From: Ideonella sp. A 288
GTDB taxonomy: Bacteria; Pseudomonadota; Gammaproteobacteria; Burkholderiales; Burkholderiaceae_C
Length of the DNA: 32,042 bases
Assembly (NCBI RefSeq): GCF_002198735.1
Contig: NZ_MWLO01000072.1
Span: forward strand, 1 to 32,042
Reading direction: 5' to 3'
The notes under the pieces are model-generated. The model searched no databases, was not told the DNA's origin, and was given only the letters and a program-made list of their open reading frames with translations. Numbering within the stretch: the stretch's first letter is position 1; the number at the start of each line of letters is the position of its first letter. Of this stretch, positions 7,269 to 25,699 are shown one piece after another. The position numbers and the translations under genes are program-made.

Positions 7269-8554
7269 AGACCGCGCTGCGCGCCGACCTGCTCGACTTC
7301 ACCGGCGATCCCGGCCTGGACGACCTGCACAGCCCGCTGGTGCGCTGGCGGCCCGGCCACTGGCTGCTGATCGGCGACGACGGCCGCATCGTCGCCGTGC
7401 AGCCCGAGGCCCCCGGCGACGACTGGCAACGCCACGACCACGCCGGCCGGCTGTTGACGCCCGGCTTCATCGACACCCACGTGCACTGCCCGCAGATCGA
7501 CGTGATCGCTTCGTGGGGCGCACAGTTGCTCGACTGGCTGGAGACCTACACCTTCCCGGCCGAGGCGCGCCATGCCGACCCGGCGGTGGCGGCCGAGGCC
7601 GCGCAGCGCTTCCTCGACGCGCTGCTGGCGCAAGGCACCACGTCTGCGGTGGTCTTTCCCACCGTGCACCGCACGTCGGTGGAGGCCTTGTTCGACGGTG
7701 CCGCGCGGCGCGGCATGCGGCTGGTGGCCGGCAAGGTGCTGATGGACCGCCATGCGCCCGACGCGCTGCGCGACGACGTGGCCGGCGCCGAGGCCGACTG
7801 CCTGGCGCTGATCGAGCGCTGGCATGGCCACGGCCGCCTGGCCTATGCGCTGACGCCGCGCTTTGCCGCCACCAGCACGCCCGAGCAACTGGCGATGGCC
7901 GGCCGCCTGCTGCAGTCCCGGCCCGACCTTTACATGCAGACCCACGTGGCCGAGAACCACGCCGAGGTGGCCTGGGTGGCCGAGCTGTTTCCGCAGGCGC
8001 GCAGCTACCTCGACGTGTACGCCAGCCATGGCCTGCTCGGCGAGCGCTCGGTGCTGGCCCATGGCATCTGGCTCGACGACATCGACCGCGCGCTGCTGCG
8101 CGACAGCGGGGCGCAGATCGCGTTCTGCCCGTCGTCCAACCTGTTCCTGGGCAGCGGCCTGTTCGGCTGGGCGCAGGCGCGGGCGGCCGGCGTGGCGGTG
8201 AGCCTGGCCAGCGACGTGGGCGGTGGCACCTCGCTGTCGATGCACCGCACGATGGCCGACGGCTACAAGGTGCAGGCGATGGCCGGCACGCGCCTGTCGG
8301 CCTGGGCGCTGCTGCACGCGGCCACGCGCGGCGCGGCGCAGGCGCTGCGCCTGGGCCACGAGATCGGCAGCCTCGAGCCCGGCGCCATGGCCGACCTGGC
8401 GCTGTGGGACTGGGCCGTGGGCCCGGTGGCGCAGCGCCGCGACAGCCTGGCCCGCGAGTTGCATGAGCGGGTCTTTGCCTGGGTCATGCTCGGCGACGAC
8501 CGGAACCTGATCGAGACCTGGGTCGGCGGCCAGCGGCGCCATGCCCGCCCCTGA
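7265..8554 (+). CDS. guaD: Guanine deaminase
   Basis: A 429-residue amidohydrolase-fold enzyme converting guanine to xanthine and ammonia. The guanine deaminase signature PGFIDTHVHCPQ is at 66-77, with metal ligands His72 and His74. Further expected ligands are His227 in THVAENH, His266 in LAHGIWL and Asp317 in SDVGGG. Length matches bacterial GuaD. The start overlaps the LysR stop by 4 nt, indicating translational coupling. Its product is the substrate of the divergent xanthine dehydrogenase, which fits the cluster as a catabolic unit. The Cys after the HxH motif and the PQ pair separate it from cytosine deaminase and from the SAH/MTA deaminase branch. Confidence 0.93.
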   Translation: MKTALRADLLDFTGDPGLDDLHSPLVRWRPGHWLLIGDDGRIVAVQPEAPGDDWQRHDHAGRLLTPGFIDTHVHCPQIDVIASWGAQLLDWLETYTFPAEARHADPAVAAEAAQRFLDALLAQGTTSAVVFPTVHRTSVEALFDGAARRGMRLVAGKVLMDRHAPDALRDDVAGAEADCLALIERWHGHGRLAYALTPRFAATSTPEQLAMAGRLLQSRPDLYMQTHVAENHAEVAWVAELFPQARSYLDVYASHGLLGERSVLAHGIWLDDIDRALLRDSGAQIAFCPSSNLFLGSGLFGWAQARAAGVAVSLASDVGGGTSLSMHRTMADGYKVQAMAGTRLSAWALLHAATRGAAQALRLGHEIGSLEPGAMADLALWDWAVGPVAQRRDSLARELHERVFAWVMLGDDRNLIETWVGGQRRHARP

Positions 8555-8583
8555 ACGCTTCGGCTCCACGACAAGGGACCACG

Positions 8584-10107: not shown

Positions 10108-11155
10108 AGCCCGGCCGCAGCCCTCGCAGGCGATGTCCATCGCCTCGCCGCTGATCGCGCTGGCGGTCACCGTGGTCATCGGCGTGTTCCTGTTCTCGGC
10201 GCTCGGCAAGGATCCGGTGCGCGGCCTGCAGATGTTCTTCGTCGAGCCGGTGAAGAACGCCTATGCGCTGTCCGAGATCGCCATCAAGGCCACGCCGCTG
10301 GCGCTGATCGCGCTGGGCCTGTCGATCTGCTACCGATCCAACGTGTGGAACATCGGCGCCGAGGGCCAGTTCGTGCTTGGCGCCATCTGCGCCGGCGGCG
10401 TGGCCATGCAGGCTGGGCCCGACACCTCACGCGGCATCGTCGTGCTGATCCTGCTGGCCGGGGTGGCCGGCGGCATGTTCTGGGCCGGCCTGGTGGCGCT
10501 GCTGCGAGACCGCTTCAACGCCAGCGAGATCCTGGTCAGCCTGATGCTGGTGTACGTGGCCGACCTGCTGCTGTCCTACCTGGTCTACGGGCCCTGGAAA
10601 GACCCGAAGGGCTACAACTTCCCGCAGACCATCACCTTTGCCGCGGTGACCAAGATCCCGCGGCTGTTCGACGGCACGCGGGCCAACATCGGCGTGCTGG
10701 TGGCGCTGGGCGCGGTGGCGGCGGGCTGGCTGTTCCTGTTCCGCACCTACGCCGGCTTCCAGCTGCAGGTGGGCGGGCTGGCACCGGCCGCCGCACGCTA
10801 TGCCGGCTTCTCGTCGCGCAAGGCGCTGTGGATGGCACTGCTGGCCTCGGGTGGCCTGGCCGGCCTGGCCGGGGGCCTCGAGGCGGCCGGGCCGCTGGGC
10901 CAGCTGACGCCTTATGTGCCGGTGGGCTACGGCTTCGCGGCCATCATCGTCGCCTTCGTCGGGCGGCTGCACCCGGTGGGCGTGGTGTTCTCGGCCATCC
11001 TGATGAGCATGTTCTACATCGGCGGCGAACTGGCGCAGTCGCGCATGGGGCTGCCCAAGTCGATCACCGGCGTGTTCCAGGGCCTGCTGCTGTTCACGCT
11101 GCTGGCCGCCGACACGCTGATCCATTACCGCGTGCGCGTCGCAAGGAAGATCTGA
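10094..11155 (+). CDS. ABC transporter permease, purine/nucleoside uptake (subunit 1)
   Basis: A 353-residue inner-membrane permease of the branched-chain amino acid/ribose-type superfamily (BPD_transp_2). It has about 9-10 hydrophobic segments and the family motif NIGAEGQFVLGA near residue 92. Two ATGs are possible (10088 and 10094). I chose 10094 because GGAG at 10082-10085 lies 8 nt before it, against 2 nt for the other. It overlaps the ATPase gene by 14 nt and is followed after 1 nt by the second permease. The C-terminal part of the core has GFAAIIVAFVGRLHPVGVV, typical of the YufP/NupP-like subunit. Confidence 0.9.
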   Translation: MLKLEARPQPSQAMSIASPLIALAVTVVIGVFLFSALGKDPVRGLQMFFVEPVKNAYALSEIAIKATPLALIALGLSICYRSNVWNIGAEGQFVLGAICAGGVAMQAGPDTSRGIVVLILLAGVAGGMFWAGLVALLRDRFNASEILVSLMLVYVADLLLSYLVYGPWKDPKGYNFPQTITFAAVTKIPRLFDGTRANIGVLVALGAVAAGWLFLFRTYAGFQLQVGGLAPAAARYAGFSSRKALWMALLASGGLAGLAGGLEAAGPLGQLTPYVPVGYGFAAIIVAFVGRLHPVGVVFSAILMSMFYIGGELAQSRMGLPKSITGVFQGLLLFTLLAADTLIHYRVRVARKI

Positions 11156-11156
11156 C

Positions 11157-12077
11157 ATGGATTCGATCGCACTGCTCATCGCCGCCACACTCAACGCCGG
11201 CACCGTGCTGGCCATCGCCGGGCTCGGCCTGCTCATCAACGAACGCGCGGGGGTGCTGAACCTCGGCGCCGAAGGCATGATGCTGGTGGCCGCCATCGCG
11301 GGGTTCGCCACCGCGGTGCACACCGGCAGCGACGTGGCCGGCTTCGCCGCCGGCATGGCCGCGGGCGCGCTGATGGCCGCGGCCTTCGGCGTGCTGGTGA
11401 TCTGGTTCAACACCAACCAGTACGCCACCGGGCTGGCGCTCAGCCTCTTCGGGGGCGGCTTCTCGGCCTTCGCCGGCATCCAGTACACGCAGCAGAAGCT
11501 GGGCGACCGGGCCAAGTTCGAGATCCCGTTCCTGGCCGATATCCCGCTGGTCGGGCCGGCCTTCTTCAAGCACCACCCAATGGTCTATCTGGCCGTGCTG
11601 GGGGTGGTGGCGCTCAGCTGGTTCCTGTACCGCTCGCGCGGCGGGCTGGTGCTGCGCGCGGTGGGCGAGGCGCCCGAATCGGCCCATGCGCTGGGCTACC
11701 CGGTGCGGCGCCTGCGCTTCCTGGCGGTGATCGTCGGCGGCGCGCTGTGCGGCCTGGCTGGCGCCTACGTCAGCGTCATCTACACGCCGCTGTGGGTGGA
11801 GGGCATGATCGCCGGCAAGGGCTGGATCGCGCTGGCGCTCACCACCTTCGCCACCTGGCGGCCGGCACGCATCCTGCTGGGGGCCTACCTGTTCGGCGGC
11901 GTCACGATGCTGCAGTTCCACCTGCAGGGCGAGGGCGTGCAGATCCCCAGCCAGTGGCTGAGCATGCTGCCCTACCTGGCCACCATCGTGGTGCTGGTGC
12001 TGATCTCGCGCAATCCCACCTGGATCCGCGTGAACATGCCGGCCTCGCTGGGCAAGCCGTTCTTCCCAGGGTCGTGA
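11157..12077 (+). CDS. ABC transporter permease, purine/nucleoside uptake (subunit 2)
   Basis: A 306-residue inner-membrane permease, shorter than its neighbour, with about 8-9 hydrophobic segments and the related motif NLGAEGMMLV near residues 37-46. It matches the YufQ/NupQ-like second permease, which pairs with the longer subunit as a heterodimer. The ATG at 11157 follows the previous stop after a single base, so the two are translationally coupled. A late segment around AGKGWIALALTTFATWRP is the conserved loop of this subfamily. After it comes a 78-bp gap with a possible internal promoter before the binding lipoprotein. Confidence 0.9.
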   Translation: MDSIALLIAATLNAGTVLAIAGLGLLINERAGVLNLGAEGMMLVAAIAGFATAVHTGSDVAGFAAGMAAGALMAAAFGVLVIWFNTNQYATGLALSLFGGGFSAFAGIQYTQQKLGDRAKFEIPFLADIPLVGPAFFKHHPMVYLAVLGVVALSWFLYRSRGGLVLRAVGEAPESAHALGYPVRRLRFLAVIVGGALCGLAGAYVSVIYTPLWVEGMIAGKGWIALALTTFATWRPARILLGAYLFGGVTMLQFHLQGEGVQIPSQWLSMLPYLATIVVLVLISRNPTWIRVNMPASLGKPFFPGS

Positions 12078-12080
12078 CTG

Positions 12081-12108
12081 TGTCACCACCCTGGTGCATC
12101 GCATAATT
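12081..12108 (+). promoter_or_regulatory. Possible sigma-70 promoter for the BMP lipoprotein gene
   Basis: GTGTCA (12081-12086, 4/6 to TTGACA) and CATAAT (12103-12108, 5/6 to TATAAT) are separated by 16 bp, in a locally AT-richer stretch before the gene at 12156. A small inverted repeat, CACCA-CCC-TGGTG (12085-12097), overlaps the -35 side and could be an operator. An extra promoter would let the binding protein be made in excess of the membrane subunits. Inferred. Confidence 0.4.
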
Positions 12109-12155
12109 TCCCTTTCCCGCGCCATCCCAACCCATCCCCTCGATCTGGAGAAGAC

Positions 12156-13322
12156 ATGACGGAGCAATCCAAGCGTTCACTGCTGAAGCTGGCCGGCTGG
12201 TCTACCTTGGCCGCCACCGCGGCCCTGGTCGGCTGCGGCAAGAAGGAAGAGCCCGCCGCAGCGCCGGCCCCGGCCCCGGCCAGCGCGCCCGCCTCGGCCG
12301 CGGCCGCCAAGCCCGAACCGCTGAAGATCGCCTTCGCCTACGTCGGCCCGGTGGGCGATGGCGGCTGGACCTTCGCGCACGACAACGCGCGCAAGGCCAT
12401 CGAGAAGGAATTCGGCGACAAGATCGTCACCAGCTTCGTCGAGAAGGTGCCCGAATCGGCCGATGCCGAGCGTGTGTTCCGCGACCTGGTGGGCCAGGGC
12501 AACAAGCTGATCTTCGGCACCACCTTCGGCTACATGGAGCCCATGCTCAAGGTGGCGCCCGATGCCAAGGACGTGAAGTTCGAGCATGCCACCGGCTACA
12601 AGACCGCCGACAACATGCGCACCTACGACAGCCGCACCTACGAGGGCGCGTACATGGCCGGCGTCATCGCCGGCAGCATGACCAAGACCAACACGCTGGG
12701 CGTGGTGGGCTCGATCCCCATCCCCGAGGTCATCCGCAACATCAATTCGTTCACCCTCGGCGCGCAGAGCGTCAACCCGAAGATCAAGACCAAGGTGGTG
12801 TGGGTGAACGAATGGTTCAACCCGCCCAAGGAAACCGAGGCCGCCACCGCGCTGATCAACGGCGGCGCCGACGTGCTGATGCAGAACACCGATTCGCCCG
12901 CGGTGCTGAAGACGGCGCAGGACAAGGGCAAGCGAGCCTTCGGCTGGGACAGCGACATGACGGCCTACGGCCCCAAGGCGCACCTGGGCTCGGCGATCAT
13001 CAACTGGGCGCCGTACTACATCAAGGCCACCCAGGAGGCGCTCGACGGCAAGTGGGCCACCGGCAAGGCCTGGTGGGGCGTCAAGGAGGGTGCGATCGAC
13101 ATGGTCTCCGTCGCCGACGACGTGCCGGCCGAGACCAAGAAGAAGGTCGACGAGGTGAAGGCCGGCCTGAAGGACGGCAGCTTCTCGATCTGGAAGGGCC
13201 CGATCACCGACAACACCGGCAAGGTGCAGATCGAGAAGGACAAGGTCGCCGACGACGAGTTCCTGGGCGGCATCAAGTTCTACGTGAAGGGTGTGGAAGG
13301 CAAGGTGCCGGGCGACAAGTGA
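12156..13322 (+). CDS. BMP family ABC transporter substrate-binding lipoprotein
   Basis: A 388-residue lipoprotein of the BMP/Med (PnrA-like) family, whose studied members bind nucleosides or purines. The signal peptide ends in lipobox LVGC with the lipidated Cys at 27. An Ala/Pro-rich linker (about 33-53) follows, then the binding domain from about residue 54 (LKIAFAYVGPVGDGGWTF). Family features include GTTFGYMEP, the DSRTYEGAYMAGVIAG segment, FTLGAQSVNP and GWDSDM. GGAG precedes the ATG at 12156 at normal spacing. It completes the importer encoded by the three genes upstream. Neighbouring guaD, xdh and adenine deaminase genes point to purine ligands, though xanthine, guanine, adenine or nucleosides cannot be told apart from sequence alone. 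Confidence 0.92.
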   Translation: MTEQSKRSLLKLAGWSTLAATAALVGCGKKEEPAAAPAPAPASAPASAAAAKPEPLKIAFAYVGPVGDGGWTFAHDNARKAIEKEFGDKIVTSFVEKVPESADAERVFRDLVGQGNKLIFGTTFGYMEPMLKVAPDAKDVKFEHATGYKTADNMRTYDSRTYEGAYMAGVIAGSMTKTNTLGVVGSIPIPEVIRNINSFTLGAQSVNPKIKTKVVWVNEWFNPPKETEAATALINGGADVLMQNTDSPAVLKTAQDKGKRAFGWDSDMTAYGPKAHLGSAIINWAPYYIKATQEALDGKWATGKAWWGVKEGAIDMVSVADDVPAETKKKVDEVKAGLKDGSFSIWKGPITDNTGKVQIEKDKVADDEFLGGIKFYVKGVEGKVPGDK

Positions 13323-13343
13323 GCCCGGCCTGCCGCTGACACC

Positions 13344-13378
13344 GACGCCGCCCGCGCTGCACGCCGGGCGGCGTCTTT
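13344..13378 (+). terminator. Rho-independent terminator after the BMP gene
   Basis: A perfect 11-bp stem, GACGCCGCCCG (13344-13354) with CGGGCGGCGTC (13365-13375), a 10-nt loop and a short TTT tail. It lies 22 bp after the BMP stop and probably ends the lysR-guaD-transporter operon. Confidence 0.75.
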
Positions 13379-13434
13379 CATGGGGCGCCACGCGGGCGTG
13401 ACGTCCGCTGTGGCGCTTCGACCGAGTGGATGCC

Positions 13435-14067
13435 ATGTCACCTGAATCTCCGTCACCCCGTGCGCCTTGGCTGGTGCTCGCGTCGGTGGCCACGCTGGTG
13501 CTGCTGGCCGTGTCGGGCTGGCAGCCCTACGACCGCGCCACCTGGGTCATGGAAGTGATGCCGGTCGCCATCGCCCTGCCGGTGCTGTGGCTGACGTACG
13601 GGAGGGTTCCGCTGACGACGCTGTTGTACGTCTGCATCTTCGTCCATGCCACGGTGCTGATGCTCGGTGGCGCCTACTCTTACGCCCGGGTGCCGCTGGG
13701 CTTTCAATTGCAGGATCTGCTGCACCTCGGCCGCAACCCGTACGACAAGATCGGCCACTTCTTCCAGGGCTTCGTCCCGGCGCTCGTGGCGCGCGAGATC
13801 CTGATCCGCGGCCACCATGTGCAGGGCCGACGGATGCTGGCTTTTCTGGTCGTCTGCGTCGTGCTGGCCATCAGCGCCACCTACGAGTTCATCGAATGGG
13901 GCGCGGCGCTGGCCCTCGGCCAGGGGGCAGACGAGTTCCTCGGCACGCAGGGCGATCCCTGGGACACGCAGTCGGACATGTTCTTCGCCCTCATCGGGTC
14001 GGTGACGGCGCTGCTGCTGTGCTCCGGCTTGCACGATCGCCAACTCGGTCGCCTGGCGGCCCGGTGA
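13435..14067 (+). CDS. DUF2238 (YjdF-like) inner-membrane protein
   Basis: A 210-residue integral membrane protein with about six hydrophobic segments (roughly 12-28, 40-55, 60-79, 108-124, 134-152, 182-198). The conserved family motifs are visible: NPYDKIGHFFQGFVPALVARE (positions 101-121), the EFIEW segment (151-155) and GDPWDTQSDM (173-182). Conserved charged or polar residues inside membrane-proximal motifs suggest an enzymatic or transport role, but none is established to my knowledge. The ATG at 13435 is preferred; a GTG at 13426 is possible. It follows a terminator, so it is probably its own unit or the first of a unit with the adenine-deaminase-like gene 172 bp further on. Its link to purine metabolism is positional only. 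Confidence 0.8.
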   Translation: MSPESPSPRAPWLVLASVATLVLLAVSGWQPYDRATWVMEVMPVAIALPVLWLTYGRVPLTTLLYVCIFVHATVLMLGGAYSYARVPLGFQLQDLLHLGRNPYDKIGHFFQGFVPALVAREILIRGHHVQGRRMLAFLVVCVVLAISATYEFIEWGAALALGQGADEFLGTQGDPWDTQSDMFFALIGSVTALLLCSGLHDRQLGRLAAR

Positions 14068-14128
14068 GTGTGCGGCGGACCTCGCCGTTGCGGACCGATG
14101 CGCCGCGGCATGGTCGCCCGGTGGCGAT

Positions 14129-14140
14129 GCCATCGATGGC
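14129..14140. promoter_or_regulatory. 12-bp perfect palindrome upstream of the adenine deaminase gene
   Basis: GCCATCGATGGC is a perfect palindrome 100 bp before the start at 14240, in an otherwise non-coding 172-bp gap. It may be an operator; with no second copy seen, this is weak. Confidence 0.25.
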
Positions 14141-14239
14141 AGACTGAGGCCCTGCCGGGTGGGGCGTCCCAACGCCCATCGCCTGGCTCGACACCTGCTT
14201 GCCACCCCCGTGGGTGACATTCTTCGCTGGAGCCTCGAC

Positions 14240-15280
14240 ATGATCGACTTCGACCGCATCCCCCGCGAGCGCCTGATGGCGCTGCTGCGCTCGGCGCCCA
14301 AGGCCGAGCTGCACATCCACATCGAGGGCTCGCTCGAGCCCGAGCTGATCTTCGACCTGGCGCGGCGCAACGGCGTGGCGCTGCCCTACGCCAGCGTCGA
14401 GGCCCTGCGGGCCGCCTACGCGTTCACCGACCTGCAGAGCTTCCTGGACATCTACTACGCCGGGGCCAGCGTGCTGCTGAAGGAGGACGACTTCCACGCG
14501 ATGGCCATGGCCTACTTCGCGCGCGCGGCGGCCGACGGCGTGGTGCACGCCGAGCTGTTCTTCGATCCGCAGACCCACACCGACCGCGGCGTGCCGATGG
14601 CCGCGGTGGTGCAGGGCCTGGCCCGGGCCTGCGCCGATGCCAGAACCCAGCACGGCATCGACGCGTCCTTGATCCTGTGCTTCCTGCGCCATCTCACCGA
14701 GGCGGCGGCCTTCGACACGCTGGAGGCGGCCTTGCCGTTCCGGCAGCACTTCATCGGCGTGGGCCTCGACAGCAGCGAGCGCGGCCACCCGCCCGAGAAG
14801 TTCGCGCGGGTCTTCGCCAAGGCCCGGGCGCTGGGCCTGCACCTGGTGGCTCACGCCGGCGAGGAAGGGCCGCCGGCCTACATCGAGAGCGCGCTCGACG
14901 TGCTGAAGGTCGAGCGCATCGACCACGGCGTGCGCTGCGTCGAGAGCCCGGCGCTGGTGCAGCGGCTGGCGGCGCAGCGCATGCCGCTGACGGTGTGCCC
15001 CTTGTCCAACGTCAAGCTGTGCGTGGTTCCGACGATGGCCGATCACCGCCTGCCCGAGCTGCTGTCCGCGGGCCTGTGCGCCACGGTCAACAGCGACGAC
15101 CCTGCCTATTTTGGCGGTTATCTCGGCGACAACTTCGTCGCCACCTTCACGGCGCTGCCCCAGCTCGGCGCGCGCGAGGCGCACACCTTGATGCGCAACA
15201 GCTTCGAGGCGAGCTTCTCGCCGCCCGAGGCCAAGGCGGCCTGGATCGCGCAGCTCGACCAGGCCTTCGCCGCCGGCTGA
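14240..15280 (+). CDS. Adenine deaminase (adenosine-deaminase-fold type)
   Basis: A 346-residue zinc hydrolase of the adenosine/AMP deaminase superfamily. Metal and catalytic residues are in place: His25 and His27 in AELHIHIEGSLEPE, His205 and Glu208 in VAHAGEEG, His229 in IDHGVRC and Asp286/Asp287 in NSDDPAYFGGY. The IEGSLEPE form of the first motif, GLDSSERGHPPEKF (175-188) and DDPAYFGGY are traits I associate with the fungal Aah1/Pseudomonas adenine deaminase branch rather than true adenosine deaminase, so adenine to hypoxanthine is the likely reaction. Xanthine dehydrogenase would then oxidise hypoxanthine. GGAG precedes the ATG at 14240 at about 8 nt. Substrate assignment is a motif-based inference. 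Confidence 0.85.
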   Translation: MIDFDRIPRERLMALLRSAPKAELHIHIEGSLEPELIFDLARRNGVALPYASVEALRAAYAFTDLQSFLDIYYAGASVLLKEDDFHAMAMAYFARAAADGVVHAELFFDPQTHTDRGVPMAAVVQGLARACADARTQHGIDASLILCFLRHLTEAAAFDTLEAALPFRQHFIGVGLDSSERGHPPEKFARVFAKARALGLHLVAHAGEEGPPAYIESALDVLKVERIDHGVRCVESPALVQRLAAQRMPLTVCPLSNVKLCVVPTMADHRLPELLSAGLCATVNSDDPAYFGGYLGDNFVATFTALPQLGAREAHTLMRNSFEASFSPPEAKAAWIAQLDQAFAAG

Positions 15281-15630: not shown

Positions 15631-15790
15631 TGTGCTTGTCGACCACCGCCATCCGCCACGAGAGCCCCCACGCCATGTCCCGCGCCGTTGAAGGATCGTT
15701 CGCCCTGCTGGCGATCGACGCATCACGCCATCCCCGGGATGCCCTGTGCGCACAACATGCCCTGCAGTGCGCCGCGCGGAGGACCTTGCC

Positions 15791-16939
15791 GTGAACCTGC
15801 CGCGCGCAAGCCTGCACCGTTTTTCACCGGCCGCATTGGGCGTGGCCGGCGCAATGGCCACGCTGCTGGCCGGTGGCCTGGCCTGGCTGCCTGCCGCGAT
15901 GGCCCTGGGCCTGGTGGTGGCCGGGACGCTGATCGGCCTGGCCCAGACGCGCCGCAGCGCCACCGTGCAACGCTCCATCGACGACTACGTGGCCGCGCAG
16001 GCCAGCTTCGGTGAAGAGGTGGCGCCGGTCTGGTGCCGGCACCTGGAATCGTCCCGCGAGCAGATGGAATCGGCCGTCACCTCGCTGTCGGCGCGCTTCT
16101 CCGGCATCGCCGACAAGCTGCGCGAATCGGTGCAGACCGCCTCGGTCGAGACGCAGACGGTGGACGACCACGACAAGGGCCTGGTGGCGGTGTTCGCGCG
16201 CAGCGAACGCGAACTGGGCGAGGTCGTCGCCTCGCAGAAGGCCACGATGGTCGGCATGCTCGGCATGGTCGACAGGGTGCAGGGCCTGGACCGTTTCATC
16301 GTCGAGCTGAAGGCCATGGTGGCCGAGGTGGCCAAGATCTCGCGGCAGACCAATCTGCTGGCCCTGAACGCCGCCATCGAGGCCGCACGCAGCGGCGAGC
16401 AGGGCCGCGGCTTTGCCGTGGTGGCGCAGGAGTTCCGGCTGCTGTCCAGCCAGTCGGCCGACACCGGCCGGCGCATGGCCGAGAAGGTGGACCTGATCAG
16501 CGCCGCGATCGTCGAGGTGAGCAGCGTCGTGCGCAGCGCCGTGGCCGAGGAAGACGGCACGATGTCCCGCGCCGAAGGCTCGATCGAGCGCGTGCTCGAC
16601 GGCTTTCGCACCATCACCGATGCGCTGCTGGGCTCGAGCAAGCTGCTCAAGGACGAGAGCGTGGTCATCAAGGCCGAGATCGACGAGGCCCTGGTGCAAC
16701 TGCAGTTCCAGGACCGCGTCAGCCAGATCATGAGCCACGTGATGCAGAACATCGGCAGCCTGCCCGACTACCTGCAGCGCCACCGGCAGGACTGTGCCCA
16801 GCAGGGTGCGCTGCGCCCGCTGGAGCCGCAGGCGCTGCTGACCGAGCTGAAGAGCACCTACGTCATGGCCGACCAGCACGCCCTGCACCACGGCACGGCG
16901 GTGGCCCAGGCCGACGACACCGAAATCACCTTCTTCTAG
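15791..16939 (+). CDS. Methyl-accepting chemotaxis-like receptor without a sensor domain
   Basis: A 382-residue receptor-like protein. Two hydrophobic segments (about 13-30 and 33-51) are separated by almost nothing, so there is no periplasmic sensor domain and no recognisable HAMP. A coiled coil leads to the conserved receptor hairpin tip (about 183-216: [26 protein letters not shown]), where CheA and CheW would dock. The C-terminal part has [17 protein letters not shown] (301-317) and an EITFF end that lacks the CheR-tethering spacing. The start is GTG at 15791, supported by GGAGGA seven bases upstream. It is first in the chemosensory operon, 8 nt before cheY. It may sense membrane state or an internal signal, or act as an adaptor to another receptor; the stimulus is unknown. 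Confidence 0.85.
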
Positions 16940-16947
16940 AGACCCCC

Positions 16948-17316
16948 ATGGCCAAGACCATCATGATCGTCGACGACTCGGCCTCGATGCGGCACGTCGT
17001 CGGTGCCGCCCTCAAAGGCGAGGGCTACGACGTGCTCGAAGGCCAGGACGGCCGCGACGCGCTGTCGAAGCTGAAGGGCCAGAAGGTGCACCTGATCATC
17101 AGCGACGTGAACATGCCGAACATGGACGGCATCAGCTTCGTCAAGGCCGTGAAGCAGCTGCCCAGCTACCGCTTCACGCCCATCATCATGCTGACCACCG
17201 AGTCGGACGAGGCCCGCAAGCTCGAGGGCCAGGCCGCCGGCGCCAAGGCCTGGGTGGTCAAGCCCTTCCAGCCCGCGCGCCTGCTGGTGGCCGTGCAGAA
17301 GCTCTGCCTGCCCTAG
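16948..17316 (+). CDS. cheY: CheY-like single-domain response regulator
   Basis: A 122-residue receiver domain with nothing attached. Acidic pocket Asp9/Asp10, phosphoacceptor Asp53 (IISDVNMPNMDG), Thr83/84 and Lys105 (VVKPFQP) are all present, so it should be phosphorylated by the CheA of the same operon. It could act on a flagellar or pilus motor, on another output, or as a phosphate sink; no CheZ or CheC phosphatase gene lies in the window. It sits between the first receptor and the STAS gene, with gaps of 8 and 39 nt. Confidence 0.92.
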   Translation: MAKTIMIVDDSASMRHVVGAALKGEGYDVLEGQDGRDALSKLKGQKVHLIISDVNMPNMDGISFVKAVKQLPSYRFTPIIMLTTESDEARKLEGQAAGAKAWVVKPFQPARLLVAVQKLCLP

Positions 17317-17355: not shown

Positions 17356-17727
17356 ATGGCCTCGACCAGGAAATCCCCACGCGCGGGCACGACGCTGCGC
17401 GTCGAGGGTGAGTTGACCATCTTCCGCGTGGCCGAGCTCAAGCCGATGCTGCTGGGCAATGCGGCGCTCACCGAGCTCGACCTGTCCGGCGTCTGCGAGA
17501 TCGACACCGCCGGCCTGCAGTTGCTGATGGTTGCCAGGCGCCAGGCCGAGGCCCAGCAGAGGCGCCTGAGGCTGGTGAACCGCAGCACCGCGGTGGAGGC
17601 GATGTTCGAGCGAGTCAACGTGGCCGCCTTCTTCGGCGACGCGCTGGACCCCGAGCCCGCCGCCACCCGCACGGCAGGACGCCGCGCCACGCCCGCCACC
17701 ACCACCACCACCGACGGAGCCCACTGA
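17356..17727 (+). CDS. STAS-domain protein (anti-sigma-antagonist-like) in the che operon
   Basis: A 123-residue protein. Residues about 12-95 form a STAS domain with the core LDLSGVCEIDTAGLQLLMVA (41-60). In classical anti-anti-sigma factors the residue after the core Asp is a phosphorylated Ser (D-S-S/T-G); here the line reads D50-T51-A52-G53, so Thr51 is the candidate site. The last 25 residues are a low-complexity Ala/Thr tail ending in a run of five Thr. No partner anti-sigma kinase of the RsbW/SpoIIAB type is in the window. Its position, one base before cheA, indicates co-translation with the kinase and suggests a role in the array or in linking it to another switch. Function is unproven. 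Confidence 0.8.
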   Translation: MASTRKSPRAGTTLRVEGELTIFRVAELKPMLLGNAALTELDLSGVCEIDTAGLQLLMVARRQAEAQQRRLRLVNRSTAVEAMFERVNVAAFFGDALDPEPAATRTAGRRATPATTTTTDGAH

Positions 17728-17728
17728 C

Positions 17729-19933
17729 ATGGACCTGGACCAGGCACTGGCCGTCTTCGTGACGGAGAGCCGCGAACTGCTGGCGGACATGGAATCGGCG
17801 CTGCTCGCGGTGGAGCAGGCCGAGCCGAAGGACGAACTGGTCAACGCGATCTTCCGCGCGGCCCACACCATCAAGGGTTCGTCGGGGCTGTTCGGGCTGG
17901 ACCACGTGGTGTCCTTCACCCATGGGGTCGAGAGCGTGCTCGACCAGGTGCGCGCCGGAGCCTTGCCCATTGCCGACCGGCTGGTGGTGCTGCTGCTGTC
18001 GTGCCGCGACCACCTGGTGTCGCTGATCGACACGGTGGCCAGTGGTCGCACCGAGGCCGATGCCCAGCTGACGGCTTCGGGGCAGCCGCTGGAGGCCGCT
18101 CTGCGGGCCTACCTGGCAGCCCCCGGCGGGGCAGCCATTCCGGCGCCGGCCCCGTTGCCGCAGGCGCAGGCCAAGGCCTTGCCGGCGCAAACGGGCGGCG
18201 ACGTCGCTCGGCCCCACGATGCGACGGTCGATTCCGAGCACTGGCACCTGTCGCTGCGCTTCGGGCCCGACGTGCTGCGCAACGGCATGGACCCGCTGTC
18301 CTTCTTCAGCTTCATGGACACCATGGGGCACATCGTCCACATCGCCACCGTGGCCGACGCGTTGCCCGATGCCGACGCGATGGACCCCGAGGCCTGCTAC
18401 CTGGGTTTCGAGCTGGCCTACCAGACCGACGCCGACAAGGCCGCCATCGAGGCGGTCTTCGAGTTCGTGCGCGACGACAGCCGCATCACGCTGCTGCCGC
18501 CGCGCAGCCGCATCGCCGACTACGTGAGGCTGATCGAGCAGCAGGGCGACGCGGCGCGCCTGGGCGAGATGCTCGTGCGCTGCGGCACCCTGACCGAGCG
18601 CGAGCTGGCACTGGCGCTCACGGCCCAGGCCGCCGCGCCCGACGAGCGCATCGGCAGCCTGCTGGTGCAGCAGGGCAGCGTGCCGCCGCAGGTGGTGGAG
18701 GCCGCGCTGCAGAAGCAGAAGCTGGTCAAGGACACGGTGGCCCACGAGAGCCGCTCGATCCGCGTCGACGCAGACAAGCTCGACCAGCTGATCAACCTGG
18801 TCGGCGAGCTGATCATCGCCGGCGCCAGCGTCAACCTCATCGCCCACCGCGCCCGCATCACCGAGCTGCAGGAGAGCACCTCGAAGCTGTCGATGCTGGT
18901 CGAGGAAGTGCGCGACAGCGCGCTGCAACTGCGCATGGTGAAGATCGGCGCCACCTTCGGCCGCTTCCAGCGCGTGGTGCACGATGTCTCGCGCGATCTG
19001 GGCAAGGACGTGGGCCTGGTCATCAGCGGCGAGGACACCGAACTCGACAAGACGGTGATCGAGAAGATCAGCGACCCGCTGATGCACCTGGTGCGCAACG
19101 CGATGGACCACGGCATCGAGTCGGCCGAGCGCCGCGCCGCCCGCGGCAAGCCGGCCCAGGGCACGCTGTCGCTCAACGCCTTCCACGATTCCGGCAGCAT
19201 CGTCATCACCGTCGAGGACGACGGCGGCGGCCTCGACCGCGAGCGCATCCTGGCCAAGGCCGTCGAGCGCGGGCTGGTGGAAGCCGGCCGCACGCTCACC
19301 GACGCCGAGGTCTATGCGCTGATCTTCGAGCCGGGCTTCTCGACGGCCGAGACGGTGACCAACCTGTCGGGCCGCGGGGTCGGGCTGGACGTGGTCAAGC
19401 GCAACATCACCGAACTGCGCGGCACGGTGGAACTGTCCAGCGTGGCCGGTGTCGGCACCACGGTGACGGTGCGGCTGCCGCTCACCCTGGCCATCATCGA
19501 CGGCTTCCTGGTGGGCGTGGGCAAGTCGGTGTTCGCCCTGCCGCTGGACATGATCGAGGAGTGCGTCGCCTTCTCGGCCGAGCCCGGCCACAACTACACC
19601 AACCTGCGCGGCGAGGTGCTGCCCTTCATCCGCCTGCGCGAGCTGTTCCGCGTGTCGGGCCAGTCGGGGCGCAGCGAGAACATCGTCGTCCTCAAGCACG
19701 GCGACCAGCGCGCCGGCGTGGTGGTGGACACCCTGCTGGGCGAGTTCCAGACGGTCATCAAGCCGCTGGGCCCGATGTTCAGCCACGTCAAGTGCGTCAG
19801 CGGCTCCACGATCCTGGGCAGTGGCGAGGTCGCGCTGATCCTGGACGTGCCGGCCATCGTCGGCCGCTGCGTCAACAACGATCGGCGCATCACCGGCCAG
19901 GCGCACCAGGTGCTGGAGGCACTGGCCTCATGA
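17729..19933 (+). CDS. cheA: CheA histidine kinase with tandem MshEN-like motifs
   Basis: A 734-residue chemotaxis kinase. P1 (HPt) carries the phosphorylated His46 in [10 protein letters not shown]. An Ala/Pro linker (about 130-165) leads to a P2-like domain (about 168-258). Residues 277-300 and 307-330 are two tandem 24-residue motifs of the MshEN/GspE-N type (see findings). P3 dimerisation starts near 344 ([19 protein letters not shown]). P4 kinase boxes are N ([16 protein letters not shown], Asn457), G1 (DDGGGLD, 497-503), F (FEPGFSTA, 533-540) and G2 ([10 protein letters not shown]). P5, the CheW-like domain, runs from about 588 to the end. All catalytic elements look intact. The ATG at 17729 follows the STAS stop after one base. 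It would phosphorylate CheY and CheB. Confidence 0.95.
18557..18718 (+). repeat. Segment of cheA encoding two MshEN-like motifs
   Basis: It encodes CheA residues 277-330. Motif 1 starts [12 protein letters not shown] and ends at Gln300; motif 2 starts [12 protein letters not shown] and ends at Gln330. Each is 24 residues, with a 6-residue spacer. Identical placement of Arg, Gly, Leu-Val, Gly, Leu and terminal Gln in both shows an internal protein duplication. Confidence 0.75.
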
Positions 19934-20099
19934 CCGCCATCACGCCGATTGCCCCAGGCATCGAATGCCGGGATTGCTTCATGCGATCGAAGCGGGCCCA
20001 GGCGCCGCCGGCGCAGCGCCCGGATCGGACACCAACCTGCCTCCATGCCTGCCTCGCGCAGCAACCCTGTTCCTGATTTCCATCCTCGAGGTGAATCAA

Positions 20100-22685
20100 A
20101 TGCTCAAGAATCTCAAAATCGGCCTGCGCCTCGGCATCGGCTTCGCCGTGACGCTGGCCCTGCTGCTCGTCGTCTCGACCATTGCCTTCACGCGCATCAG
20201 CGCCTTGAACGCCGAGGTCGACACCCTGGTGAGCAACCAGTTCCCCAAGACCGTGCAGGCCAACAACATCATCGACGCGATCAACAACGTCGCACGGCAC
20301 CTGCGCAACGCCTACATCTACAGCGGCGCCGAGCAGCAGAAGTCGCTGGACGCCATCGCACCCGAGCGCGCGGTGATCACTGAGAACGTCGACAAGCTCG
20401 AGAAGTCGATCACCAGCGACAAGGGCAAGGACATGCTCGCCAAGCTGCGCAACGCGCGCACGGCCTACGTTGCCGAGCAGGACAAGTTCCTCGAGTTGCT
20501 CAAGGCGGGCAAGCGCGACGAGATCGTCTTGCTGCTGCAGGGCGGGCTGCGCACGGCGCAGAACGCCTACCTCAAGGCGACGTCCGACCTGGTCGACTTC
20601 CAGACCGAACTGGTGGCCAAGACCGGCAAGGACGCCGACGAGATGGCCAACGCCGCCGAACGCCTGGTGATCATCCTGGCGACCGTGGCCGCCGTGCTGG
20701 CCGCGGTGATGGGCTTCCTGATCACGCGGTCCATCACGGGACCGGTCAACCAGGTCGTGGTCGCGGCGGGCAAGATGTCCAAAGGGGACTTCAAGTTCGA
20801 ACTGAAGTCCGACGCCCGCGACGAGGTGGGTGAAGTGGTGCGCGCGGTCGAGGCGGTGCAGACGGCCGTGGCCCGCATGGTGGGCGATGCGGCCATGCTG
20901 AGCAAGGCCGCGGTCGACGGCAAGCTGGCCACCCGGGCCGACGCCAGCAAGCACGAGGGTGAGTTCCAGGTCGTGGTCAAGGGTGTCAACGACACGCTCG
21001 ACGCCGTGATCGGGCCACTGAACGTGACCGCCAAGTACGTGGACGACATCTCCAAGGGCGTGATCCCGCCGACCATCACCGACAACTACAACGGCGACTT
21101 CAACGTCATCAAGACCAACCTCAACAACATGGTCAAGATGATGAACGACCTGCTGGCGCAGACCGACATCATCATCCAGGGCGCGGCCGACGGCGAACTG
21201 GACAAGCGTGCCAACGCGGCACTCTTCGTGGGCGGCTGGAACAAGCTGGTGCTGGGCGTCAACGAGGTGGTGACGAACATCGTCAACCCGCTCAACGTGA
21301 CCGCGACCTATGTGGACCGCATCGCCAAGGGCGACATCCCGCCGCCGATCACCGATGCCTACAAGGGCCAGTACAACATCATCAAGAACAACCTCAATGC
21401 CTGCATCGAGGCCACCGAGCAGCAGGCCCGCGCGGCCCAGGCCATCTCGATGGGCGACCTGACCGCGGTGGTCAAGGTGCGGTCCGAGAACGACGTGATG
21501 GCCAAGAGCCTGATCAACGTCATCAAGGCCGTCAACGCACTGGTCGAGGACGCCAACATGCTGTCGAAGGCCACGGTGGACGGCCGCCTGGATGCGCGCA
21601 TCGACGTGGCCCGCCACCAGGGCGACAACCGCAAGGTGGTCGAGGGCCTGAACGCCGTGATGGTGGCGGTGAGCACGCCGGTGCAGGAACTGCGCGAGGT
21701 GCTGGGTGCCATGGAAGGCGGCGACCTCACCACCACGATGAACCGCAGCTACGACGGCACCTGGGACGAGCTGAAGTCGGCCGTCAACAACATGCTGAAG
21801 AAGCTGGCGCAGGTGGTGACCGAGGTGAACGCGGGGGCGCAGGCCCTGGCCAGCGCCTCCGAAGAGGTGAGTGCCACGGCGCAGTCGCTGTCGCAGGCGG
21901 CCACCGAACAGGCGGCCGGCGTGGAAGAGACGAGTGCGTCGATCGAGCAGATGACCACCTCCATCGCCCAGAACACCGAGAACGCCAAGGTCACCGAAGG
22001 CATGGCCAGCAAGGCCGCCAAGGACGCTGCCGACGGCGGCGCCTCGGTCAACGAGACGGTGGCCGCGATGAAGCAGATCGCCACCAAGATCGGCATCATC
22101 GACGACATCGCCGCGCAGACCAACCTGCTGGCGCTGAACGCGGCCATCGAGGCCGCCCGCGCCGGCGAGCACGGCAAGGGCTTCGCGGTGGTGGCGGCCG
22201 AGGTGCGCAAGCTGGCCGAGCGCAGCCAGGTGGCCGCGCAGGAGATCGGCGAAGTGGCGAGCAGCAGCGTGCTGCTGGCCGAGAAGGCGGGCAAGCTGCT
22301 CGAGCAGATGGTGCCCGTCATCACCAAGACCTCCGACCTGGTGCAGGAGATCGCGGCCTCGTCCACCGAGCAGTCCTCGGGCGTGGTGCAGATCAACTCG
22401 GCCGTGGGCCAGCTGAACCAGACCACGCAGCAGAACGCGTCCAGTTCGGAAGAGCTGGCGGCCACCGCCGAGGAGATGAGCGGCCAGGCCGAGGGCCTGC
22501 AGCAGACCATGGCCTTCTTCAAGCTGGCCGGTGGCGCCACCGCGGCGCGGCCGCCGGCGCTGGCCTTGCACAAGGGCACGGCCGGCCGGTCGGGCGGTGC
22601 GAAGCCCGGCCTCGGCAAGGTGGCGGCCAACATGGTGACGGCCAGCCGCGGCGACATCGACCAGACGAAGTTCGTCAAGTTCTGA
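20100..22685 (+). CDS. Methyl-accepting chemotaxis protein with poly-HAMP array
   Basis: An 861-residue transmembrane receptor. TM1 is about 10-32, a helical (four-helix-bundle-like) periplasmic sensor about 33-185, and TM2 about 188-208. A HAMP domain (209-262) is followed by a long array of HAMP-like units: residues 264-354 and 355-445 are recognisable copies of one 91-residue di-HAMP unit, and a third partial copy starts near 485. The signalling hairpin spans about 565-805, with its tip at about 667-709 ([25 protein letters not shown]). A flexible Gly/Ala-rich tail (811-856) ends in KFVKF, which fits the x-aromatic-x-x-aromatic pentapeptide used to tether CheR, CheB or CheD. The ATG at 20100 follows GAGGTG at good spacing and starts a normal signal-anchor. 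It lies 166 bp after cheA. The ligand is unknown. Confidence 0.93.
20889..21434 (+). repeat. Tandem 91-codon di-HAMP units inside the receptor gene
   Basis: It encodes residues 264-354 and 355-445. Landmarks repeat at 91-residue spacing: [15 protein letters not shown] at 306 and [15 protein letters not shown] at 397, then [19 protein letters not shown] and [19 protein letters not shown]. The duplication is at protein level; by eye the DNA copies have diverged at many third positions. Confidence 0.7.
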
Positions 22686-22695
22686 GGACGCCGCC

Positions 22696-23283
22696 ATGTC
22701 TGCACTGTTGAAGCAGCCGGGCCCCGCCGGCGAGGGCCTGGCGGCCCCGAAGGGGTCGTCGCGGCCCGTGTCGGAGTCCACCCAGTACCTGACCTTCCTG
22801 CTGGGCAGCGAGATGTTCTCGATCAACATCCTGTGCATCAAGGAGATCATCTGGTACGCCGGTCTCACCGAGGTGCCGATGATGCCGGCCTGCATCCGCG
22901 GCGTGATCAACCTGCGCGGCGCGGTGGTGCCGGTGATGGACCTCTCGGCGCGCTTCGGCCGGCCGTCCACGCCGGTGAGCAAGAGCACCTGCATCGTCAT
23001 CATCGAGGTGGCCGCGCAGGGCTTGGGCGAGCGGCAGAACGTGGGCGTGGTGGTCGACGCGGTGCAGGCCGTGCTGGAGATCTCGGCCACCGAGATCGAG
23101 CCGCCGCCCAACTTCGGAGCCAAGATCCGGGGTGACTTCATCGAGGGCATCGGCAAGGTCAACGGCAAGTTCGTGATCCTGCTGAACGTCGACAGCGTGC
23201 TGTCCTCGGGCGAGATCTGCAAGCTGGGCGAACTGGCCGCCAATGCGCAGGCCGATGCCGATGCCGAGCTGGCCCATGCCTGA
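22696..23283 (+). CDS. cheW: CheW chemotaxis coupling protein
   Basis: A 195-residue scaffold protein that would link the receptor tips to the CheA P5 domain. After a disordered N-terminal 27 residues, the CheW fold begins at QYLTFLLGSEMFSINI. It contains the conserved ACIRGVINLRGAVVPVMDLSARFG segment (from about 75), then NVGVVVDAVQAVLEI and the final KFVILLNVDSVL strand. It is somewhat longer than the usual 160 residues because of both tails; the C-terminus ends in an Ala/Asp/Glu-rich stretch. GAGG precedes the ATG at 22696, 10 bp after the receptor stop. The gene overlaps cheR by 8 nt. Confidence 0.94.
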   Translation: MSALLKQPGPAGEGLAAPKGSSRPVSESTQYLTFLLGSEMFSINILCIKEIIWYAGLTEVPMMPACIRGVINLRGAVVPVMDLSARFGRPSTPVSKSTCIVIIEVAAQGLGERQNVGVVVDAVQAVLEISATEIEPPPNFGAKIRGDFIEGIGKVNGKFVILLNVDSVLSSGEICKLGELAANAQADADAELAHA

Positions 23284-24124
23284 AGCGCTGCGCGCCGCGG
23301 CGCCGAAGGCGGTCGACATCACGCCCGTGCTCAGCGACGCCGAGTTCGCGCGCTTCCAGCGCTTCATCTTCGACGCTGCCGGCATCACGCTGGGGGCGGC
23401 GAAGAAGCCGCTGGTCACCGGGCGGCTGGGCAAGCGGCTGGCGGTGTACGGGCTGTCGAGCTACGCCGAGTACTTTCGCCTGCTGTCGTCCGGCCAGCAC
23501 CCGGACGAGACGCAGATGGCGGTGGACCTGCTCACCACCAACGAGACCTATTTCTTTCGCGAGGCGCAGCACTTCGAGCGCCTGCGCGAGCATGCGCTGG
23601 CGGCCCGGCAGGACGGCCGACCCTATCGCGTGTGGAGCGCGGCCAGTTCCAGCGGCGAAGAGGCCTACAGCATCGCGATGGTGCTGGCCGAATGCCTGGG
23701 CGGCGCGCCCTGGGAGGTGCTGGGCACCGACATCAGCCTGCGCGTGCTGCAGGATGCCGTGCGCGGCCTGTACACGATGGAGCGGGCGCGGCACCTGCCG
23801 CCCGAGCTGATGCGCCGCCATTGCCTGAAGGGCACCGACGAGCACGCCGGCCGCCTGATGGTGCGCCCCGAGCTGCGTGCACGCGTCAGCTTCGGGCAGG
23901 TGAACCTCAACGAGCCCTTGCCGGCACTGGGCCGCTTCGACTTCGTGTTCCTGCGCAACGTGATGATCTACTTCAGCGACGACACCAAGCGCCAGGTCGT
24001 TGCCCGCGTGGTGTCCACGCTCGCGCCGGGCGGCTGCCTGTGCGTGGGCCATTCCGAGAGCCTGAACCACCTCACCGATGCGCTGCGCACGGTGGCGCCG
24101 TCGATGTACTGCCTTGACACCTGA
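23276..24124 (+). CDS. cheR: CheR chemoreceptor methyltransferase
   Basis: A 282-residue SAM-dependent enzyme that methylates receptor glutamates for adaptation. The N-terminal helical domain (about 18-75) is followed by TTNETYFFRE (87-96). The SAM site has WSAASSSGEEAYSIAM (120-135), TDIS with Asp152, and the FLRNVMIYF strand (225-233). In many CheR proteins the first motif reads WSAACSTGEE; here the Cys is replaced by Ser, which is unlikely to abolish binding. The start at 23276 lies inside cheW (8-nt overlap, ATGCCTGA), so the two are coupled. The operon's second receptor ends in a possible CheR-tethering pentapeptide. Length is normal. Confidence 0.94.
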   Translation: MPEALRAAAPKAVDITPVLSDAEFARFQRFIFDAAGITLGAAKKPLVTGRLGKRLAVYGLSSYAEYFRLLSSGQHPDETQMAVDLLTTNETYFFREAQHFERLREHALAARQDGRPYRVWSAASSSGEEAYSIAMVLAECLGGAPWEVLGTDISLRVLQDAVRGLYTMERARHLPPELMRRHCLKGTDEHAGRLMVRPELRARVSFGQVNLNEPLPALGRFDFVFLRNVMIYFSDDTKRQVVARVVSTLAPGGCLCVGHSESLNHLTDALRTVAPSMYCLDT

Positions 24125-24128
24125 AATC

Positions 24129-24641
24129 ATGGCCAGCGTCGACCCGATCGACATCTTCCTGCCGCCCGGCGGGTGGTTCGTCGGGGACGACAGCTACCGC
24201 ATCCGCACGCTGCTGGGCTCGTGCGTGTCGATCACGCTGTGGCATTCGGCCGCGCGCCTGGGGGCGATGTCGCACTTCCTGCTGCCCACGCGCGGCGGCA
24301 CGGCACCGGTGGCCGAGCTGGACGGCCGTTACGGCGACGAGGCGCTGCAACTGGTCCTGGACGAGCTGCGCGCGGCCGGCGTGCCGCCGGTGCAGTGCCA
24401 GGCCAAGATCTTCGGCGGCGGCAACATGTTCCCGGGGCTGGCGCCGACCGGCAACCCGATGGTCGGGCAGCGCAACGGCGAGGCCGCCCGGGCGCTGCTT
24501 CAGGCCGGCGGCATCACCGTGGTGTCGGAAAGCCTGTTCGGCATCGGGCACCGGCAGATCCTGTTCGAAGTGGCCACCGGCGATGTCTGGTCCTACCAGG
24601 TCGCGCACGACACCCGGCAGGGGCAGGAGGACGTGGCATGA
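24129..24641 (+). CDS. cheD: CheD receptor glutamine deamidase
   Basis: A 170-residue CheD, which deamidates selected receptor glutamines to glutamates and in some bacteria works with CheC. The catalytic Cys32 is in [12 protein letters not shown] and the His49 in [16 protein letters not shown] and GRRGxx-like C-terminal parts (here [18 protein letters not shown]) are also present. The ATG at 24129 lies 4 nt after the cheR stop; a TTG at 24114 overlapping cheR would be an alternative. The TGA overlaps the cheB start by 4 nt. The adjacency to cheR and cheB is the normal adaptation set; no CheC is visible in the window. Confidence 0.92.
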
Positions 24642-25699
24642 CCCGCATCAAGGTGATGGTGGTCGACGACTCGGCGGTGGTGCGCCAGGTGGTGAGCAGC
24701 CTGCTGCAGGCCGATCCGGCGATCGAGGTGCTGTGCGCCGTCGGCGACCCGCTGCAGGCGATGGCCCGCATGGCCACGCAGTGGCCCGACGTGATCGTGC
24801 TCGACATCGAGATGCCGCGCATGGACGGCATCACCTTCCTGAAGAAGATCATGGCCGAGCGGCCCACGCCGGTGGTGATCTGCTCGACGCTGACCGAGAA
24901 GGGCGCGCAGACCTCGCTGGCGGCGCTGTCCGCCGGCGCGGTGGCCATCATCACCAAGCCCAAGCTCGGGCTGAAGCAGTTCCTCACCGACGCGTCGGAC
25001 GACCTGCTGTCGGCGGTGAAGTCGGCCGCGCGGGCGCGCGTCGGCCAGCTGCGGCCCATGCCCCGGCACAGCGCCGATGCGGTGCTGCCGGCGGTCGATG
25101 CGGCGGGCGCGATGATCCGCACCACCGACCGCGTGGTGGCGTTGGGCACCTCCACCGGCGGCACGCAGGCGCTGGAGCGCGTGCTCACCCGCCTGCCGCG
25201 GGTCTGCCCCGGCATCGTCATCGTGCAGCACATGCCCGAGAAGTTCACCGCCGAGTTCGCGCACCGGCTCGACGGCCTGTGCCAGATCGACGTGCACGAG
25301 GCGCAGCACAACGAGCGTGTCATCCCCGGCCTGGCGCTCATCGCCCCCGGCGGGCGGCACATGCTGCTGCGGCGCAATGGCGCGCAATATCACGTCGAGG
25401 TGCGCGACGGCCCGCTGGTGAACCGCCATCGCCCGTCCGTGGACGTGCTGTTCCGTTCGGTCGCCGCCTGCGCCGGCGCCAATGCGCTGGGCGTCATCAT
25501 GACCGGCATGGGCGACGACGGCGCCGCCGGGCTGCTCGAGATGCGCCAGGCCGGCGCCCGCACGCTGGCCCAGGACGAGGCCAGCTGCGTCGTCTTCGGC
25601 ATGCCCAAGGTGGCGATCGAGCGCGGTGGCGTCGAGCGCACCGTGCCGCTCGACGCGATCGCGCGCGAGATCATGCAGGTGTCGCTCCACGCCCCGTAG
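24638..25699 (+). CDS. cheB: CheB receptor methylesterase/deamidase
   Basis: A 353-residue, two-domain adaptation enzyme. The receiver domain (1-125) has Asp10/Asp11 and phosphoacceptor Asp56 ([13 protein letters not shown]), with Lys108 in ITKPK. A linker (about 135-162) leads to the methylesterase domain with Ser172 in [10 protein letters not shown], His198 in [11 protein letters not shown] and Asp294 in GMGDDGAAG, the expected catalytic triad. Phosphorylation by CheA would relieve inhibition of the esterase. The start overlaps cheD by 4 nt (ATGA). It is the last gene of the chemosensory operon. Confidence 0.95.

Follow-up and report, generated by a model that had tools for sequence, protein, structure and literature searches.

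A predicted MshEN-type domain inside a chemotaxis kinase of Ideonella sp. A 288 and its candidate role in cyclic di-GMP sensing

Cyclic di-GMP (c-di-GMP) sets whether bacteria swim or settle, and chemosensory arrays set the direction in which they move. The locus described here raises the question of whether the two systems may meet inside one protein. It lies in a 32,042-nucleotide stretch of DNA from Ideonella sp. A 288 (NCBI RefSeq assembly GCF_002198735.1, contig NZ_MWLO01000072.1), here called the window, and encodes a CheA kinase in which a sequence-only reading had noted a tandem pair of motifs resembling the c-di-GMP-binding repeat of MshEN domains. The novelty of this pairing is limited, since it has been in print since 2016, when Wang et al. 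stated in one clause of the main text that MshEN associates with 'chemotaxis protein kinase CheA' and CheX, among others (PMC5013675). In the literature searched, with supplements and most subscription papers outside its scope, we found neither a test of an MshEN-bearing CheA nor a description of the anatomy, spread and losses of such a family.

The inserted motif pair and its predicted fold

The MshEN pair is placed between the P2-like domain and the P3 dimerization domain of CheA (Table 1). This is where the sequence-only reading had put it, and Pfam and a full-length structural model agree. The CheA order of an Hpt domain with its histidine, H-kinase_dim, HATPase_c and a CheW-like domain was recovered by Pfam in the window protein and 62 relatives (63/63), and H46 was invariant in these full-length rows, as were many residues of the kinase core. 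The Pfam P2 model had no match in the window CheA and matched 1/63 full-length rows at E 0.0083.

Table 1 Coordinates of the chemosensory genes and of the CheA domains in the window
Feature	Position	Strand	Basis
Chemoreceptor-like protein (MCPsignal)	15746..16939	+	Pfam MCPsignal E 2.1e-21
CheY-like receiver, start provisional	16960..17316	+	Response_reg E 4.4e-26 in ORF 16033-17316
STAS-domain protein, 123 aa, directly before cheA	17356..17727	+	Pfam STAS_2 E 1.6e-14
CheA kinase, 734 aa, P1 - P2-like - MshEN - P3 - P4 - P5	17729..19933	+	ORF + Pfam
P1 (Hpt), residues 6-90	17744..17998	+	Pfam Hpt E 2.5e-17
His46 codon, expected phospho-acceptor, within P1	17864-17866	+	Translation
P2-like alpha/beta domain, residues 172-257	18242..18499	+	Predicted strands/helices at 172-256
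MshEN motif 1, residues 277-300	18557..18628	+	NF053729 match; helices 278-285, 290-302
Spacer, six residues, 301-306	18629..18646	+	Translation
MshEN motif 2, residues 307-330	18647..18718	+	NF053729 match; helices 308-314, 320-342
P3 dimerization domain, residues 341-400, after MshEN helix 4 (320-342)	18749..18928	+	Pfam H-kinase_dim; helices 348-375, 378-402
P4 catalytic ATPase, residues 449-586	19073..19486	+	Pfam HATPase_c E 4.8e-19
P5 CheW-like, residues 592-711	19502..19861	+	Pfam CheW E 1.2e-25
Chemoreceptor, 4-helix-bundle sensor + tandem HAMP + MCP signaling domain, start provisional	19965..22685	+	Pfam
CheW	22696..23283	+	Pfam E 1.8e-37
CheR	23243..24124	+	Pfam E 2.1e-53
CheD	24078..24641	+	Pfam E 3.9e-23
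CheB (receiver + methylesterase), start provisional	24653..25699	+	CheB_methylest E 1.1e-65, Response_reg E 5.2e-22, ORF 24173-25699

Both 24-residue motifs are seen in the translation as they had been described, with R, L or I, and G at positions 1-3, L6, V7, G10, L or V at position 17, L21 and Q24, as well as Thr or Ser at position 11 and RIG at the start of motif 2. The NCBIfam model NF053729 (c-di-GMP_motif, related to MshE), which has a curated cut-off of 38 bits, scored above it with the 54-aa piece 277-330 (42.9 bits, E 3.1e-11) and with residues 262-340 (54.2 bits), and slightly below it with the whole CheA (36.3 bits). In a six-frame search of the genome it was flagged above the cut-off at C135:18557-18718 (40.8 bits), one of seven such places in this genome, one of which passes only together with its neighbors. 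The same model matched all 81 cut-out domains from the window and the best 80 of at least 579 relatives at E 0.001. The Pfam MshEN model PF05157, in contrast, had no match in the window CheA even at E 10; with E 0.01 as the threshold it had none among 63 full-length CheA rows (window plus 62 relatives). The domain is therefore not filed under PF05157, and by Pfam MshEN annotation these kinases look ordinary; the earlier expectation of an MshEN profile match holds for the NCBIfam model and fails for the Pfam one.

A phmmer search of the PDB with the single sequence returned PilF (E 8.6e-6), PilB chains and, weakly, MshE (E 0.065). With a 12-sequence profile (window plus 11 relatives), PilF reached E 8e-16, best on its GSPII-C domain, and MshE 3e-5. 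A chance match is ruled out by the independent profile, the single-sequence PDB search and the predicted fold. Other Pfam hints were set aside: DUF4388 was weak and covered motif 2 alone (E 0.045 on the piece; 3/63 rows at E 0.01), and Frem_N (E 0.07-0.16) and NA-iREase3 (E 0.013) fell under their own cut-offs.

Similar motifs were noticed elsewhere in the same genome. An 846-aa frame (L015, C151 at about 11665-12003) has, by eye, four tandem MshEN-like 24-residue motifs followed by a Pfam MshEN match, and in two proteins (L014 on C127 and L016 on C52) an MshEN-like pair precedes a region that resembles, by eye only, a polysaccharide tyrosine kinase of EpsG/CpsD type. Of the 81 CheA domains (window and best 80 of at least 579), 9 match the EpsG family as well.

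AlphaFold2 predicted the four-helix arrangement of MshEN_N for residues 262-340 (81-row alignment, mean pLDDT 79.8), with helices at 17-24, 29-41, 47-53 and 59-77 in numbering from 262 and one extra helix ahead of them; AlphaFold may already know MshEN from the PDB. Foldseek returned 49 PDB matches to this model, of which ranks 1-16 were all MshE, PilF or PilB N-domains and the others unrelated. The top match was the c-di-GMP-bound GSPII-B domain of PilF (8pfa, K167R variant; rmsd 0.8 Å over 56 columns), with the wild-type domain (8pdk) likewise at 0.8 Å and MshE with c-di-GMP (5htl) at 1.0 Å. The Foldseek probability was 1.00 at ranks 1-10, and none of the 49 matches reached E 0.001, the best being 0.098, owing to the short chain. 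In a full-length model (63-row alignment, mean pLDDT 84.9, pTM 0.47) the MshEN helices were the same as in the domain model, and residues 261-330 lay in blocks at pLDDT 86-94, while the stretch joining P1 to the P2-like domain (residues 134-163) was below 50; the pTM of 0.47 makes the packing of the domains unreliable. The MshEN fold proposed earlier is what the two models and Foldseek predict.

Ligand-contact positions and predicted c-di-GMP binding

Vibrio cholerae MshE (5htl) and the window CheA are alike in their two 24-residue motifs, contact positions and predicted four-helix unit. In MshE the MshEN domain stands at the N-terminus, ahead of MshEN_C and a secretion/pilus ATPase, and has a five-residue spacer (PMC5013675), whereas in CheA it is internal, stands between the P2-like and P3 domains of a histidine kinase, and lacks MshEN_C. 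The absence of MshEN_C is no bar to binding, since MshEN_N alone of MshE binds c-di-GMP at 0.35 uM (PMC5013675). The five-residue spacer is absent in the window CheA, which has 6 residues instead, and spacers range from 6 to 17 across the window and the best 80 of at least 579 relatives. This spacer is not taken as defining, because GSPII-C of Thermus PilF, to which binding is attributed, has 7 residues by the phmmer alignment.

PilF provides both the best PDB sequence relative of the CheA domain (GSPII-C) and its best fold match (GSPII-B), and both of these domains bind c-di-GMP (PMC11731258). Unlike the CheA, PilF is a pilus assembly ATPase, and GSPII-C has a third motif and more sequence beyond (PMC11731258). 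Models of NfrB-type c-di-GMP-activated glycosyltransferases also matched the CheA domains at E 0.001 (PRK15489 in 77/81 and PRK11234 in 55/81, window and best 80 of at least 579); unlike in CheA, the output of these enzymes is polysaccharide synthesis.

The positions that contact the ligand in MshE correspond to R277, L278, G279, L293, L297 and Q300 in motif 1 and to R307, I308, G309, V323, L327 and Q330 in motif 2. All twelve are retained or conservatively substituted, with I for L at position 2 and V for L at position 17, both in motif 2. In MshE, the G3 amide and the Q24 side chain make the polar contacts to guanine, ribose and phosphate, the G3 backbone amide reading guanine O6/N7, and L21 packs on the base (PMC5013675). 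Gly11 changes in MshE abolish c-di-GMP binding, and changes of R9, D12 or Q32 lower the affinity at most fivefold (PMC5013675). The mild effect at Q32 makes a retained glutamine weaker proof than a retained glycine.

Among the 81 domains from the window and the best 80 of at least 579 relatives, G3, G10, E16, L21 and Q24 were invariant in motif 1 and G3, A19 and Q24 in motif 2. In a class sample of 39 sequences, picked by a profile of these same 81 domains, G3 and Q24 were kept in 39/39 and 37/39 for motif 1 and in 36/39 and 37/39 for motif 2. By sequence, the glycines and glutamines expected to form polar contacts with c-di-GMP rank among the most conserved residues of the motifs. G10 and E16 of motif 1 and A19 of motif 2 make no contact and are invariant too, so part of this conservation may reflect the fold. 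Other positions vary more. The motif-1 Arg is found in 73/81 domains (window and best 80 of at least 579) and in only 20/39 of the class sample. At motif-2 position 1, Arg, which the window retains, occurs in 3/81 of that set and 10/39 of the class sample, and Pro is the commonest residue (60/81 and 17/39); motif-2 Gly10 is present in 52/81 and 19/39, respectively.

GSPII-C likewise has Pro at motif-2 position 1 (P335), its sole departure, with an attributed KD2 of 324-460 nM, and GSPII-B, with Lys and Leu at the first positions of its two motifs, binds at 6 nM (PMC11731258). Pro at motif-2 position 1 is therefore no argument against binding by CheA. The sequence-only reading had been cautious about affinity on account of RIG and of position 11. 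This caution is largely answered, since position 11 belongs to the central hydrophobic core of MshE and makes no base contact (PMC5013675), and both PilF domains depart further at contact position 1 and bind.

It would be improbable, in our judgment, that CheA has kept a former MshEN unit as a spacer or protein-binding bundle that no longer binds nucleotide. Such loss of binding has precedent in XpsE (PMC5013675) and in GSPII-A of PilF (PMC11731258), the Arg and Gly10 of motif 2 are poorly retained in the family, and the domain is halved or eroded in some relatives (L047, L173 and L175). However, the window CheA keeps its full set of contact positions in identical or conservative form, and the presence of both glutamines in 81/81 domains (window and best 80 of at least 579) is hardly expected of a pure spacer. 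A different main ligand, for example another cyclic dinucleotide such as 3',3'-cGAMP, is very unlikely. MshE binds cGAMP weakly (KD 330 uM, PMC5013675) and motif 2 strays further from the consensus than motif 1 in the family; against this, the glycine whose amide reads guanine in MshE is retained in both CheA motifs, and 65 GGDEF matches in the same genome (at E 1e-5) make c-di-GMP a ready ligand. Taken on sequence and modeling, the MshEN domain of CheA very probably binds c-di-GMP, with an affinity that would probably be sub-micromolar to micromolar.

Distribution of the domain and its apparent losses

Thirty-nine of 40 nearby genomes, the organism's own included, had a match to the window CheA at E 1e-30. 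Among the 36 loci read from nearby genomes (L020-L055) were the window CheA itself as well as two repeats and two fragments; the domain was present in 11 besides the window, a remnant was seen in one (L047), and 19 were without it. A scan of named genomes gave at least 579 relatives from 596 stretches, and the best 80 all have MshEN at the same place. These 80 loci were found through patterns of the P2-like domain and ranked by likeness to a query containing the window MshEN, so 80/80 is no frequency. Genera among the best 80 of at least 579 include Rhodoferax, Rhizobacter, Janthinobacterium, Pseudoduganella, Pseudomonas, Azoarcus, Thiobacillus and Sulfuriferula, among others.

Genomes were sampled evenly at the level of the class, the order and the phylum. 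High-scoring places were found in at least 31/369 genomes of the class sample. At a threshold of E 1.9e-15 there were 38 places, one of them that of the window, and the 37 others were all confirmed as CheA with P1, a P2-like domain, MshEN and the kinase core. Three weaker places comprised two CheA with an eroded domain (L173 and L175) and one non-CheA (L174). At E 1e-13, high-scoring places occurred in at least 62/300 genomes of the order sample and at least 12/398 of the phylum sample, with CheA identity not confirmed individually in either; one place in the phylum sample (G732, a 550-aa frame with 52.9 bits) may be a non-CheA. The organism's own genome counts in each of the class, order and phylum frequencies, which are lower bounds, since in many genomes scoring covered only 13-18 of the first-look candidates. 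The nearby loci, the named loci and these three samples rule out a domain private to the organism's own genome.

In a tree of 90 kinase cores, the domain was present in 68, partial in 3 and absent in 19, and its distribution needed 10 state changes, compared with 19.9 when labels were shuffled. The ten rows nearest to the window all have the domain. Rows without it are nested within groups that carry it, and pieces of the domain survive in L047 and L175; together, nested absences and remnants suggest several losses, in a tree that was rooted at the midpoint with no true outgroup, has a very long branch for L147 and leaves 42/87 inner branches open. One row counted as lacking the domain, L050, has a contig end near that place. 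The sequences thus point to several losses of the domain in the CheA family. L047, L173 and L175 are apparently in the midst of losing it. In the genome of the window itself, a CheA paralogue on another contig (L043 on C72) is 47% identical and carries, where the domain would be, a linker rich in Ala and Pro. The domain is dispensable, as seen from the 19/90 cores without it, including this paralogue.

Gene cluster and a candidate mode of action

The kinase gene belongs to a cluster that runs from a receptor-like protein through CheY, STAS, CheA, the tandem-HAMP receptor, CheW, CheR and CheD to CheB. By BLAST, a counterpart of the STAS protein adjoins cheA in 79/80 named loci and one of the MCPsignal receptor-like protein is present in 73/80 (best 80 of at least 579). 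A regular expression found a GGDEF motif near 12/80 and an EAL motif near 2/80 of these loci, many of which end at contig ends; a c-di-GMP enzyme gene as a fixed neighbor is unsupported by these counts. The genome has one FliG match. Passages of Ortega 2020 (PMC7184735) consulted for the chemosensory class (F7, F8 or other) make no mention of STAS, c-di-GMP or MshEN. Upstream of the cluster, positions 7175-15280 encode an amidohydrolase, two permeases and a PnrA-like binding protein of an ABC transporter, a membrane protein of the DUF2238 family and an adenosine deaminase, and look like a set for purine uptake and salvage.

We consider that the MshEN_N-type domain binds one c-di-GMP per subunit and that the ligand changes kinase output, with a probability of about 0.63. 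As a moderate inference, each motif would hold one guanine, clamping helices 1-2 against helices 3-4. In the full-length model, five residues separate the end of helix 4 from the P3 helix 348-375, so clamping would alter the geometry or freedom that the P1/P2 arm has with respect to the P3-P4 core. As a result, His46 autophosphorylation or phosphate transfer to CheY may change, and receptors and c-di-GMP would be read jointly by the array. The junction at residues 341-350 has a pLDDT of only 60, and together with the pTM of 0.47 this makes the proposed coupling between MshEN and P3 and the arrangement of the domains tentative. Kinase control by c-di-GMP is only plausible. As to direction, our guess, weakly held and a shade past even, is that c-di-GMP would lower phosphate flow.

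The domain may instead bind c-di-GMP and act not on kinase activity but on localization or on the assembly of the array (polar placement, for instance, or contact with a partner that handles c-di-GMP), which we regard as unlikely. MshEN stands outside P3, P4 and P5, its low-confidence junction to P3 is perhaps flexible, and a localization link of CheA to a c-di-GMP enzyme is known from Pch and CheA in P. aeruginosa. On the other hand, a position so close to the P3 dimer helix in the model would be odd for a mere tether, and among the genes sought near cheA the near-constant neighbors are only chemosensory ones and STAS (best 80 of at least 579). Other systems in which c-di-GMP meets a chemosensory pathway include the PilZ-bearing receptor Cbp1 (PMC6454048), MapZ acting on CheR1, and Pch with CheA. 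In these cases the input enters at the receptor, the methyltransferase or a partner enzyme, and not via a domain inside the kinase.

The earlier reading as a whole is supported as far as sequence and prediction reach, and control of the kinase by c-di-GMP remains something that we infer from them. On somewhat better than even odds, the window CheA would represent a large proteobacterial family with a conserved STAS-cheA-receptor cluster, missed by the Pfam MshEN model, in which c-di-GMP gates the kinase directly by way of an MshEN clamp at the hinge between P2 and P3, the gate was lost several times, and sister kinases with and without it can be compared. If kinase output does respond to c-di-GMP in this way, no link between the two systems could be shorter than a c-di-GMP receptor domain inside the chemotaxis kinase. 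High-scoring matches, not confirmed individually as CheA, occur in about one fifth or more of the sampled order genomes. The apparent repeated losses would serve as natural controls, with a gated kinase and its ungated sister at times present in the same cell, as with the window CheA and its paralogue L043.
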